The notes under the pieces: model-generated
Told to the model about the DNA's origin: nothing
The model's database searches: none
Seen by the model: only the letters and a program-made list of their open reading frames with translations
Translations under genes and position numbers: made by a program
Origin: Paenibacillus kribbensis
GTDB lineage: Bacteria > Bacillota > Bacilli > Paenibacillales > Paenibacillaceae
NCBI RefSeq assembly: GCF_002240415.1
Contig: NZ_CP020028.1
Coordinates: 3,559,501-3,623,500, forward strand
Direction: 5' to 3'
Length of the DNA stretch: 64,000 nt
Part shown: positions 52,400 through 54,933 of the stretch, piece after piece
Numbering within the stretch: the first letter of the stretch is position 1
Layout: each line of letters opens with the position of its first letter

Positions 52400-52438
52400 A
52401 AAAACAAGCGATTTCCTTTTGACAGGAGATCGCTTGTT
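52400..52438 (-). terminator. Terminator of the Tet(L)-like gene
   Basis: ACAAGCGATTTCC and GGAGATCGCTTGT pair with one mismatch around an 8-base loop. The minus strand continues with five T residues; the plus strand has a weaker tail, so it may also end the aminotransferase transcript. Confidence 0.8.
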
Positions 52439-52465
52439 GTGGCATCCTCGACTACCTTGCGGACG

Positions 52466-53839
52466 TCATTTTGGACGATTTGTGTGACTGGCCGTTTGCA
52501 TCAGGAAACCGATTCCCCCCATGACCAAAGCTGCAATCAAGATTAGCATCAAGTTGCTGTAATGAAATGCGTCAACATCAGTCACAGTCGGAAGGAGAGG
52601 AAAGGCGAGCCATGATTTTGTCAGCAGGCCCCCGACCGTGGCCACGCCAATTCCTTCGGCCAGGAAGCAGGCAAAATTCAACAAGCCCATGCCAGATCCG
52701 GAATCCTCGGAACCCAAGGCTCCCGCAACGCTGGCGGATATGACGGTTTTCACAAATGAAAGTCCGCCGAATATCAGAACCATGGTGCCAGAAACAAGCC
52801 ATGGCGTTCGATCCGGGAACAAGGAAACGGCCAGAAAGCTTGCGCCGATCATGCATAAGCCGAGCAGCATCGTGAATACCGTCCCTAATTTGTCGACCAA
52901 TACACCGCCGACAATTCCGAACAGTACCACACTGACTGTCCCGGGAAACAGGACGCCGATTCCGATAAGGCTTGTCGGCAGTTGATGGACCTCTTTCATC
53001 AGATATGGAGTCATGGATACATAACCGGCGACTGTTCCTAACAACAGGCTTCCTGTGAGCACACCGACAATAAACGTCCGCTTTCCAAACAAATCAGGCT
53101 CTATAAACGGCTGCTCCGCATGTCGAATACGCAGGCCAAATGCGGTGAATAGCAGCACACAGACGACCAGAAATCCCCAGTGGTATGCCGTTGTGAAGAG
53201 CGTAAAAGCAACAATTCCGCCACTTAATAAAGAGGCGCCGATAATATCGGTCTTTCCCCTTTTTGAAGTTTCGTCAGGCATCATTCTCATGAAAAATGGA
53301 ATGGTTAGCAGCGTCATCATCGGCAAAAGGAACAACATGGACCAATGGAGGTACTCGGTTATACCCCCTCCGATCACTGGACCGATTCCTTCGCCGCAAG
53401 CTACCATCGATCCCACCATACCGAAAGCTTTTCCCTGATGTTCCGCATCAATGTACCGGGCTATAATGACCATGATCAACGCTGGAACCGCAGATACTCC
53501 CGCACCTTGTATTAATCGAGCCGCCAGGACGCCCGGATACCATAAATGAAATAAAATCCCCATGAAGGACCCGATGCCGTAGATCCACAGACCGAACAGA
53601 AGCAGCTTTTTCGTACCATACAAATCGGACAGCTTTCCATACACTGCTGTACCTATTGCAAACGTAAGTATAAAGCTGGTATTGACCCAATTCGCGGATG
53701 AAGGCGCAATGCTGAACTGGGTGGCGATATCCGGCAACGATACATTAAAAATGGTCTCATTGAGAACGCTGAAAAACGCAAGAAAGCTAAGCCAGACGAT
53801 AGATTTGGAATTGCTGCCTGCCATGATTAACTTCTTCAA
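52466..53839 (-). CDS. Tet(L)/Tet(K)-like MFS drug efflux protein
   Basis: A 457-residue proton-coupled antiporter with 14 predicted helices. It aligns with Tet(L) over its length: WLSFLAFFSVLNETIFNVSL near the start, NWVNTSFILTFAIGTAVYGK, LIQGAGVSAVPALIMVIIAR, and motif C GEGIGPVIGGG. SLIGIGVLFPGTVSVVLFGI and GLSFVKTVISASVAGAL are also Tet(L)-like. The start is TTG at 53839 with AAGGGG 8 bases upstream. That binding site can be hidden in a hairpin, and a short leader peptide gene precedes it. The pump probably exports tetracycline-like drugs or monovalent cations; whether it confers resistance cannot be read from sequence. Confidence 0.87.
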   Translation of the reverse strand: MKKLIMAGSNSKSIVWLSFLAFFSVLNETIFNVSLPDIATQFSIAPSSANWVNTSFILTFAIGTAVYGKLSDLYGTKKLLLFGLWIYGIGSFMGILFHLWYPGVLAARLIQGAGVSAVPALIMVIIARYIDAEHQGKAFGMVGSMVACGEGIGPVIGGGITEYLHWSMLFLLPMMTLLTIPFFMRMMPDETSKRGKTDIIGASLLSGGIVAFTLFTTAYHWGFLVVCVLLFTAFGLRIRHAEQPFIEPDLFGKRTFIVGVLTGSLLLGTVAGYVSMTPYLMKEVHQLPTSLIGIGVLFPGTVSVVLFGIVGGVLVDKLGTVFTMLLGLCMIGASFLAVSLFPDRTPWLVSGTMVLIFGGLSFVKTVISASVAGALGSEDSGSGMGLLNFACFLAEGIGVATVGGLLTKSWLAFPLLPTVTDVDAFHYSNLMLILIAALVMGGIGFLMQTASHTNRPK

Positions 53840-53847
53840 TTGGATAA

Positions 53848-53907
53848 CCCCTTAATGAGTCAAGGGGAATCGCGCAGTTTACAGGGCCAATGATGCGTAT
53901 TCCCCTT
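53848..53907 (-). promoter_or_regulatory. Translation attenuator before the Tet(L)-like gene
   Basis: Three segments can pair in alternative ways on the minus-strand transcript. Segment 1 AAGGGGAAT (53899-53907) lies inside the leader peptide gene. Segment 2 ATTCCCCTT (53862-53870) is its perfect complement. Segment 3 AAGGGG (53848-53853) is the ribosome binding site of the pump gene and also complements segment 2. Pairing 2:3 hides the binding site; pairing 1:2 frees it. Ribosome movement on the leader would shift the balance, as known for tet(L). Confidence 0.7.
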
Positions 53908-53941
53908 TATTTTGTGCCCTCTTATGCATGTTGTACCTCAT
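53879..53941 (-). CDS. Leader peptide of the Tet(L)-like gene
   Basis: A 20-codon frame from ATG 53941 to TAA 53879 with GGAGG 7 bases upstream of the ATG. Its product (starting MRYNMHKRAQ, ending ASLAL) has the same length as the tet(L) leader peptide that I recall and shares spaced residues with it (M..N...R.Q.K....SL.L). It lies between the promoter and the pump gene, and its codons for Lys-Gly-Glu carry attenuator segment 1. The role is regulatory. Confidence 0.72.
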   Translation of the reverse strand: MRYNMHKRAQNKGEYASLAL

Positions 53942-53987
53942 CGTAACGCCTCCAAATTAGAGTAGCCCGTGGAAATGGACCTAGTAA

Positions 53988-54017
53988 ATTATACCATGTG
54001 AATCAAGGTCAGTCTAA
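53988..54017 (-). promoter_or_regulatory. Promoter of the Tet(L)-like transcript
   Basis: On the minus strand TTAGAC is followed after 18 bases by the perfect -10 box TATAAT, about 47 bases before the leader peptide ATG. The remaining bases up to 54130 hold nothing recognisable. Confidence 0.65.
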
Positions 54018-54130
54018 AAGATATTCCCCTGATATGTCTATTGGGAGCGGGTGTCAGCGCTGTGGCGCTTCTCTTATGGGCGGTGACTCGCCCCTCGTGT
54101 TAAGGCAGCTAATACGGTGAGCTGGAGCAG

Positions 54131-54171
54131 CAAAAAGCCGCCCGGACCACAAACCTTGGCCGGACGGCTCT
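54131..54171 (-). terminator. Terminator of the effector-binding protein gene
   Basis: AGCCGTCCGG and CCGGGCGGCT pair with one G-T pair, followed by five T residues on the minus strand, about 20 bases past the stop. Confidence 0.85.
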
Positions 54172-54192
54172 CTTTCGTCACCACAACATGTA

Positions 54193-54933
54193 TCACTTGA
54201 TCGCGATGTAAATCAAAACAGGTTCACCAGGGCCGCCATACACTTCAAAGTCACCTGTGTAGGTCCGCTCCGCTTGTCCCGTCGCCGCCCACTTCCAGAT
54301 GGTCTGCCACACACGGATGACAGAAAAGGGCTCTGTTGATGCCTGGAAAACAGCATAGCGTGCTGCAGGGATGATCAGTTCCTCAAGATCAGCAGAAGTT
54401 TGGAAATCCGTGGCCGCTTCCTTTCCAGCAAAAAAAGTATATTCGCCCAAGGCTCCATTTTCATAATCCGTATAACATCCATAGACGAAAGATTGTCCTT
54501 CATGACCTTTGATCCGACCAGGCACGTCCTCACTCCAAAAACGCTCCCACATCTTTGGAATGATCCCGTGGGATGTTTGTTCATTCAGATTGCTCGTACG
54601 TGCTTTCAGCCCGACCAAACGGATGTCCCCTCGATATTCCTCCCGAATCGGTCCATCCCCATGAAGCCACGTATCCTCTAAAAACCTCCACCGCTTCAAG
54701 TTCGGCAGGTAATTGCGCAGCATCGTATCCGCCTCTCCTGCCTGCATTCCCTCCCCTGCGAGGATAGGCACACACTGCTGAATCATTTCTTCCATGGTCA
54801 AGTCAGGCTGTACAAATACACCTTCCTTGTAACAATATTTGCAATACTCATCCGTTTTGGCATGCTTTGCATCTGTTCCATATTGCTCCTCATGCTCCAG
54901 TGGCATACCACAGCTTTGACATACTTTATCCAT
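54193..54933 (-). CDS. Zinc-ribbon plus GyrI-like effector-binding protein
   Basis: A 246-residue two-domain protein. Residues 1-85 form a putative zinc ribbon with CQSCGMPL and CKYCYKEG and a helical stretch. Residues about 95-246 look like an AraC-effector-binding/GyrI domain (DIRLVGLKARTSN, FVYGCYTDYENGALGEYTFF, IPAARYAVFQAS). Such proteins bind small hydrophobic compounds or protein partners; the ligand is unknown. GGGAGC precedes the ATG. A WYL-type regulator gene lies upstream on the same strand, separated by a terminator. Confidence 0.78.
   Translation of the reverse strand: MDKVCQSCGMPLEHEEQYGTDAKHAKTDEYCKYCYKEGVFVQPDLTMEEMIQQCVPILAGEGMQAGEADTMLRNYLPNLKRWRFLEDTWLHGDGPIREEYRGDIRLVGLKARTSNLNEQTSHGIIPKMWERFWSEDVPGRIKGHEGQSFVYGCYTDYENGALGEYTFFAGKEAATDFQTSADLEELIIPAARYAVFQASTEPFSVIRVWQTIWKWAATGQAERTYTGDFEVYGGPGEPVLIYIAIK

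Follow-up and report, generated by a model that had tools for sequence, protein, structure and literature searches.

The tet(L) gene is preceded by a leader of 20 codons, for which attenuation and reinitiation models have been considered. Genes such as ermC, cat and fexA carry attenuators composed of a leader open reading frame (ORF), mutually exclusive pairings and a Shine-Dalgarno (SD) sequence that is either hidden or exposed, with induction by drug- and peptide-specific ribosome stalling (accessible sections of PMC5418344), and the entries listed in the same review of resistance regulatory RNAs include erm, cat, cmlA, fexA, bmrCD, lmo0919, mef/mel and tetM. The toiL upstream ORF (uORF) of Escherichia coli topAI senses several ribosome-targeting drugs, with tetracycline arresting ribosomes on the start codon of the uORF (accessible sections of PMC12121999). 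Here we describe an RNA element in the 5′ region of the mRNA of a Tet(L)-like pump gene of Paenibacillus kribbensis, located in a stretch of 64,000 nucleotides (nt; contig NZ_CP020028.1, positions 3,559,501 to 3,623,500; hereafter the window, to which coordinates refer unless stated otherwise). A first-pass annotation made from the sequence alone had proposed a two-state attenuator at this place.

Set against the ermC type, the window element has a leader ORF with its own SD and, judging from complementarity, exclusive pairings of which one would hide the SD of the pump gene; a conserved leader peptide for drug-dependent stalling is lacking. The features that characterize the element itself are all present in the window, that is, an SD, a start codon, a stem a about 22 nt further on, an interleaved stem b, and a strand b′ complementary to the gene SD. 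On balance we lean, if slightly, towards the view that this 5′ region is a conserved RNA element that senses translation of its leader, in which translation would unwind a knot and hide the SD of the gene behind it.

Parts of the leader region

The pump gene (52466–53839, minus strand, as are all features of the leader region) starts with a TTG at 53839 and encodes a protein of 457 amino acids (aa). The product matches Pfam MFS_1 at 151 bits, and its best NCBIfam family is Tet(L)/Tet(K)/Tet(45) (NF012175) at 504.6 bits. Because this score falls under the curated cut-off of 650, the Tet(L) label given earlier holds as a likeness to that family, and we call the pump Tet(L)-like, not Tet(L). As judged by the profile searches it is a pump of the major facilitator superfamily (MFS), with putative tetracycline export.

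Upstream of it, an extended −10 promoter element TGGTATAAT (53988–53996) and the SD of the leader ORF, GGAGG (53949–53953), can be read from the sequence; TGnTA-type sequences resembling TGGTATAAT were seen by eye, without a promoter scan, at the matching place in some relatives. The leader ORF (53879–53941) comprises 20 codons, MRYNMHKRAQNKGEYASLAL, plus a stop, from the ATG at 53941 to the TAA at 53881–53879. Within and behind it lie, in this order, the 5′ strand of stem a (GGGC, 53916–53919), whose first G lies 22 nt downstream of the A of the leader ATG; segment 1, i.e. the 5′ strand of the extension of stem b (AAGGGGAAT, 53899–53907); the 5′ strand of the stem b core (CGCA, 53894–53897); the 3′ strand of stem a (GCCC, 53884–53887); an A-rich loop, L3 (TGTAAAC, 53877–53883), which contains the leader stop and whose TAAAC is highly conserved across the aligned elements; the 3′ strand of the stem b core (TGCG, 53873–53876); segment 2 (ATTCCCCTT, 53862–53870), the exact reverse complement of segment 1; and segment 3 (AAGGGG, 53848–53853), the pump SD, which is the complement of CCCCTT. 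Segment 2 could pair either with segment 1 (presumed ON state) or with the pump SD (presumed OFF state).

The promoter and the 20-codon leader with its own SD had been noted by the first-pass annotation, its coordinates for the three segments are exact, and the AAGGGG ahead of the TTG at 53839 had been correctly recognized as the pump SD. The observation itself is therefore confirmed; its interpretation is partly supported, as set out below. Control by transcription attenuation was rejected by eye, without a terminator scan, a T-run following neither of the hairpins.

Conservation upstream of pump genes

Pump relatives, sought at E up to 1e-90, were found in 45 of 394 genomes of the family and 28 of 398 genomes of the class, and upstream regions were drawn from the loci of these scans, from named genome contigs and by direct retrieval. 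Searched for with up to three substitutions, the RNA tail CCCTATAAACTGCG lies upstream of the pump in 53 of 53 genome loci with a pump identity of 45% or more (L018–L020 among them being second copies from the genomes of L009–L011) and in 0 of the 23 loci where that identity, taken over the length of the pump, is 43% or less. The 5′-truncated loci L021 and L057 and the paralogues L003–L008 were excluded from both counts. Among plasmid pump loci the element was found in 5 of 6, being undetected only upstream of the pump of L087 (pGJTET1; 50.4% identical), which makes L087 the sole exception among the 59 genome and plasmid loci with a pump at least 45% identical (58 of 59). The Tet(L)-family pump of L087 starts 4 nt behind a gene of the GTP-binding, ribosome-protection type.

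The first-pass annotation had staked its proposal on conservation of the leader frame or of the complementarity in relatives. This comparison was run: relatives and the tet(L)/tet(K) loci alike keep a leader ORF and the complementarity, so that exclusive pairings could hide or free the pump SD there as well.

In several genomes of the Paenibacillaceae the pump gene is truncated, internally deleted or broken (L021/L057, L022/L123, L124 and L150); L022/L123 and L124 keep the leader element before the broken pump, and L150 keeps part of it.

Occurrence before other genes

A covariance model built from 29 pump leaders with stem b alone modelled (R1) recognized the window element, itself one of the 29 training rows, at 90 bits (E 2e-15). 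R1 gave 111 matches in 93 of the 394 family genomes, and matches in 4 of 398 genomes of the phylum. Thirty-seven of the 111 were at known pump places and 58 were retrieved, together with two phylum matches, the other 16 lying outside the analysis. The resulting alignment (A3) holds 82 elements, i.e. 27 before pumps and 55 before other genes, the latter being 54 of the 58 retrieved plus the phylum match L181; L123, L124 and L150 (broken pumps), L131 (contig edge) and L182 were left out. The phylum match L182 (E 0.0066) was judged to be a chance hit. A second model built from A3 (R2) scored the window element, which is also among its training rows, at 81 bits and found matches in 27 of 333 class genomes. 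One of these loci, L209 (G000:C1:4662554-4662640, minus strand), is a second, diverged element of the window's own genome, directly before a GNAT gene of 289 aa; a search of that genome at E up to 5 returned these two elements only.

Sorted by similarity to chosen representatives, the genes of 97 loci comprise 27 Tet(L)-like pumps, 22 protein-kinase-like genes (Pkinase at 27.6 bits, which is under the cut-off), 17 DinB genes, 10 GNAT genes of about 307 aa and four of about 289 aa, single GNATs at L163, L181 and L199, four APH-family, three methyltransferase and two DUF4037 genes. In addition, the gene of L179 resembles the kasugamycin N-acetyltransferase AAC(2′)-IIb (160 bits against a cut-off of 390), L208 precedes an isochorismatase gene, and L131 precedes a DHA2 MFS pump. 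Two loci stay unassigned: L195, where the contig ends within a pump gene, and L206, which has no recognizable gene behind it. Searches of the PDB gave no more than marginal kinase matches for the kinase-like protein (best E 0.02) and a distant N-acetyltransferase for the 307-aa GNAT (E 3e-7). The gene usually begins about 42–50 nt past the tail of the element. What had been described as an attenuator of one Tet(L)-like pump gene is, then, an element family common to genes of about eight protein superfamilies, and it looks like a common switch by which ribosome stalling would turn on genes for enzymes that might disarm drugs.

Covariation of two interleaved stems

The GGGC at 53919–53916 can pair with the GCCC at 53887–53884, and the resulting stem and stem b are interleaved in the manner of an H-type pseudoknot. 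Among 50 distinct pump leaders, the variable pair of stem a is UA in 20, CG in 19, UG in eight, unpaired in two and a gap in one, and the third pair of the stem b core is CG in 33, UG in nine, UA in seven and AU in one. When stem a and the core of stem b are counted together in these leaders, 95.5% of the cells are paired, compared with at most 53.9% when the partner strand is slid, and the covariation score of 0.198 (0.122 ± 0.010 in shuffled alignments) was reached by 0 of 500 shuffles, which ignore relatedness. On a tree of 45 pumps, the variable pair of stem a changes state at least 12 times.

In A3 all three helices covary. That is, 96.3% of the cells are paired (at most 64.5% when slid) and 46 cells are changed on both sides, compared with 13.1 after shuffling, with 0 of 500 shuffles reaching the observed value of every measure. 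Stem a is 97.2% paired in A3 although it was outside the model that built this alignment. Five elements of the class scan (L204, L205, L206, L207 and L209) have GGAC:GTCC as stem a in place of GGGC:GCCC; a further alignment, A4, was excluded from the pair counts, stem a being shifted by one to two columns in the GGAC elements. The duplex energy of segment 2 with the gene SD is about 4 standard deviations better between own than between swapped partners.

Taken together, these data argue strongly for a structure of conserved, covarying, interleaved stems, and stems a and b would coexist in one molecule as an H-type pseudoknot. The two-state attenuator with three segments proposed earlier stands as far as its pairings are concerned; the second, interleaved stem had been missed, and with it the pseudoknot as the presumed ON form.

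Constraint on the leader peptide

The pump set has leaders of 11, 12, 14, 16, 17, 20 or 21 codons (L063 and L066 being taken as 20-codon leaders), with outliers of 32 codons in L064, after the loss of one base, and of two codons in the plasmid loci L086, L089 and L090. These last three are plasmid tet(L) genes behind tet(M), in which the frame is closed by TGA (two loci) or TAA (one) and the RNA element is retained. On the tree of 45 pumps, leader length changed at least 12 times and early and late stops switched at least seven times, and the RNA past the leader stop is retained despite the varying length. The ratio of nonsynonymous to synonymous differences (pN/pS) for the codons that separate the leader start from stem a, computed on close pairs that are non-independent inside each group, is 1.24 for pumps, 0.54 for kinase-like, 0.60 for DinB and 0.99 for GNAT-307 elements; for the genes themselves the same pairs give 0.25, 0.23, 0.23 and 0.24, respectively. 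Because the values before stem a (0.54–1.24) contrast in this way with those of the genes (0.23–0.25), constraint on the leader peptide is weak or absent.

By these comparisons it is the RNA rather than the peptide that appears as the conserved entity of the leader, the codons before the structure being weakly constrained or unconstrained. In view of the variable length, the pN/pS values and the early stops, we rejected the idea that a conserved leader peptide is the main signal. Of the features in common with tet(L) that had been pointed out earlier, leader length is not conserved in the pump set, and the shared residues look like a by-product of RNA conservation. The leader peptide matched no Pfam or NCBIfam family at E up to 1, the tet leader peptide family of Pfam (PF08050) included, a weak test with a query of 20 residues.

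Spacing and proposed mechanism

Leader starts were sought 13–34 nt before stem a and picked by SD score, an alternative start being equally likely in L133, L134 and L151. All 27 pump elements and 53 of 55 others were scored as having a leader SD. Stem a begins 21–25 nt after the leader start in all 27 pump elements (exactly 22 nt in 22 of them) and 19–27 nt after it in 51 of 54 non-pump elements. The downstream edge of E. coli ribosomes held by tetracycline at start codons is at +16 to +18 (accessible sections of PMC12121999); by analogy, the edge of a start-codon-stalled ribosome would fall just short of stem a. Most leaders terminate in the interval that separates stem b from b′ (51 of 54 in the non-pump set, 20 of 27 in the pump set), the remaining seven pump leaders stopping in or before b; in the other two frames a stop is found in this interval in 5 of 108 non-pump and 2 of 54 pump cases. 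Mean duplex energies are −16.5 kcal/mol for stem b and −10.3 kcal/mol for segment 2 with the SD, and stem b is the stronger in 50 of 50 rows; untranslated RNA should therefore favour an open SD.

From this arrangement we infer an assignment of the ON and OFF states, a role for the ribosome and a role for drugs as inducers; tetracycline and sodium, named in the first-pass annotation, would be candidate inducers. In undisturbed RNA, stem a (GGGC:GCCC) would interleave with stem b (CGCA:TGCG plus AAGGGGAAT:ATTCCCCTT) to give a pseudoknot, which would lock up segment 2 and leave the pump SD free (ON). In a growing cell, ribosomes would load on the strong leader SD, unwind the knot and stop inside it; segment 2, thus released, would mask the pump SD by pairing (OFF). 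Were a drug to arrest the ribosome on the start codon of the leader or to block initiation, the knot would stay intact and the gene on, and the sequence of the leader peptide would be irrelevant to the switch.

Computed accessibility of the gene SD

A ribosome footprint was blocked in silico along the leader and the accessibility of the gene SD was computed. With the ribosome at codons 4–8 as opposed to codons 10–17, accessibility was 0.242 vs 0.135, and it was higher in 38 of 47 pump rows. The difference between codons 5/7 and codons 11/14 was 0.102 in 46 pump rows, compared with −0.047 to 0.007 in 15 scrambled sets, and 0.078 in non-pump elements, compared with −0.041 to 0.012 in 20 scrambled sets. 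It was positive in 41 of 53 of the latter, which are the usable ones among the 55 non-pump elements, none of which had been used in choosing those codons. In ribosome-free RNA the SD was more accessible in 30 of 47 pump rows and 39 of 53 others, a comparison made without scrambled control.

Several points weigh against the idea that leader translation is being sensed. The folding behind these values cannot model a pseudoknot, and the codon range 4–8 was picked after inspecting the results. A ribosome at codon 1, the modelled site of a drug-held ribosome, gave a weaker gain, both in pump rows (0.191 vs 0.135; 28 of 47) and in non-pump elements (0.360 vs 0.297; 35 of 53), again without scrambled control; in the window's own RNA, a ribosome at codon 1 gave an accessibility of 0.05, and the ribosome-free RNA gave 0.23. 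Scrambled leaders gave a more open SD in every state (0.38–0.45). A ribosome on the final leader codon gave an accessibility of 0.288, above that at codon 1 in 30 of 47 pump rows, which is not asked for if a translated leader means OFF and which would suit reinitiation. As to covariation, a tree-independent test of pairs pointed in the same direction as the other measures, with too few pairs for significance. Some members also break the rules: L203 and L208 are without stem a, L164 reads past b′, L168 is without a leader start and L206 is without an adjoining gene. Since the accessibility results are mixed and pseudoknots are unmodelled, the mechanism rests on the anatomy more than on energies, and the modelled accessibility may be said to support it weakly.

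Alternative explanations

Translational reinitiation, as described for Bacillus subtilis tetA(L), would have ribosomes that finish the leader proceed to the pump start, aided by the intervening structure, with the drug altering the efficiency; here the knot would bring the leader stop and the pump SD together. The position of the leader stop inside the knot in most elements, the usual distance of about 42–50 nt from the tail to the gene, and the accessibility peak on the last leader codon in pump rows all agree with it. However, stops in the pump set range from codon 11 to codon 21, so that the distance to the gene varies, and reinitiation leaves both the complementarity of segment 2 to the SD and the narrow start-to-stem-a spacing unexplained. 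We consider it rather unlikely. This model differs from the logic proposed here, and the earlier claim that the pump follows the same translational logic as tet(L) does not hold in that form. Classical peptide-specific attenuation of the ermC type, in which stalling of a drug-bound ribosome at a set codon of a specific peptide frees the SD, would account for the leader ORF with its own SD and for the exclusive pairings, but it would call for a conserved peptide, whereas leader length is variable, the codons before stem a are weakly constrained or unconstrained, and early stops occur while the RNA persists; we regard it as improbable.

A ligand-binding riboswitch, in which the pseudoknot and its conserved loops themselves bind a drug or metabolite and the ORF has a subordinate part, would fit the interleaved stems and the highly conserved TAAAC loop. 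It is very improbable in our opinion, given that the genes behind the element appear to act on different small molecules, that 80 of 82 elements retain a leader SD, and that the stop is frame-specific. Finally, the single-RNA folding energy of the window is unremarkable (z-score −0.68, with 44 of 200 shuffles folding equally well) and the energy of stem b is only about 2 standard deviations better with own than with swapped partners (−16.45 vs −15.76, standard deviation 0.34). These two values count against the proposed structure and would fit chance or an artefact of G/C runs, but such an origin is contradicted by the conservation at pump loci, the covariation, the R1 matches across genomes and the frame-specific stop and spacing, and its probability is negligible.

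Neighbouring genes

The same genome has a second pump (L002, G000:C1:3198891-3200213), about 35% identical and without the element. Upstream of the window pump lies a gene (54193–54933, minus strand) for a 246-aa protein, in which an N-terminal, zinc-ribbon-like CxxC pattern was recognized by eye.

Comparison with known systems

Rfam gave no match in the window (52400–54300) at E up to 1, and for 15 other loci three sub-threshold matches only, to unrelated families. No description of a pseudoknot-leader element was found in a literature search whose coverage mostly excluded subscription journals. For the tet(L)/tet(K) leader, the accessible passages mention neither an interleaved stem a, nor a peptide that does not matter, nor a recurrence of the element ahead of other genes, and the element is likewise not described in the accessible parts of PMC6685928, PMC13410324 and PMC10219788; the word 'pseudoknot' is absent from the accessible text of the regulatory-RNA review (PMC5418344) and of the toiL paper (PMC12121999). 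A study of the Paenibacillus resistome reports kasugamycin and capreomycin acetyltransferases and TetAB(48) (PMC5155152), and 'leader', 'inducib' and 'attenuat' do not occur in the accessible part of its text.

We put at about even chances that the element represents a new class of cis-regulatory RNA of the Bacilli, namely a pseudoknot laid over a peptide-independent leader ORF, ON by default and turned OFF by leader translation, which would report a block of initiation or early elongation to a broad range of drug-exporting or drug-modifying genes. If so, its presence before an unknown gene would predict protection against a translation inhibitor, be it through a pump or through a kinase-like, GNAT, APH, DinB, methyltransferase or kasugamycin-acetyltransferase-like protein, and the covariance model could serve as a search tool for uncharacterized protective genes in Paenibacillaceae. 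It would also account for the conserved look of tet(L)-type leaders, though the peptide need do nothing, and would offer a way of sensing start-codon-stalling drugs that does not depend on the peptide.

The closest relatives are the tet(L)/tet(K) leader regions, which by sequence and pairing are the same element (e.g. L016, L017, L066, L067, L085 and L086); the core of the tet(K) locus L088 is identical to that of L068. As far as the accessible sources go, the window element is like the ermC, cat and fexA attenuators in having a leader ORF, exclusive pairings and an SD that would be hidden or exposed, and unlike them in its weakly constrained or unconstrained peptide and in its presumed ON form, a pseudoknot. 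With toiL it would share the sensing of ribosome-targeting drugs and the stalling by tetracycline at the start codon, which is presumed for the window element; in that system, however, it is the stalled ribosome that breaks up the inhibitory pairing, and induction requires translation of toiL (accessible sections of PMC12121999). The element may accordingly be placed as a variant of leader-ORF translational attenuation, which a role as a translation sensor that is on by default would set apart as a class of its own.
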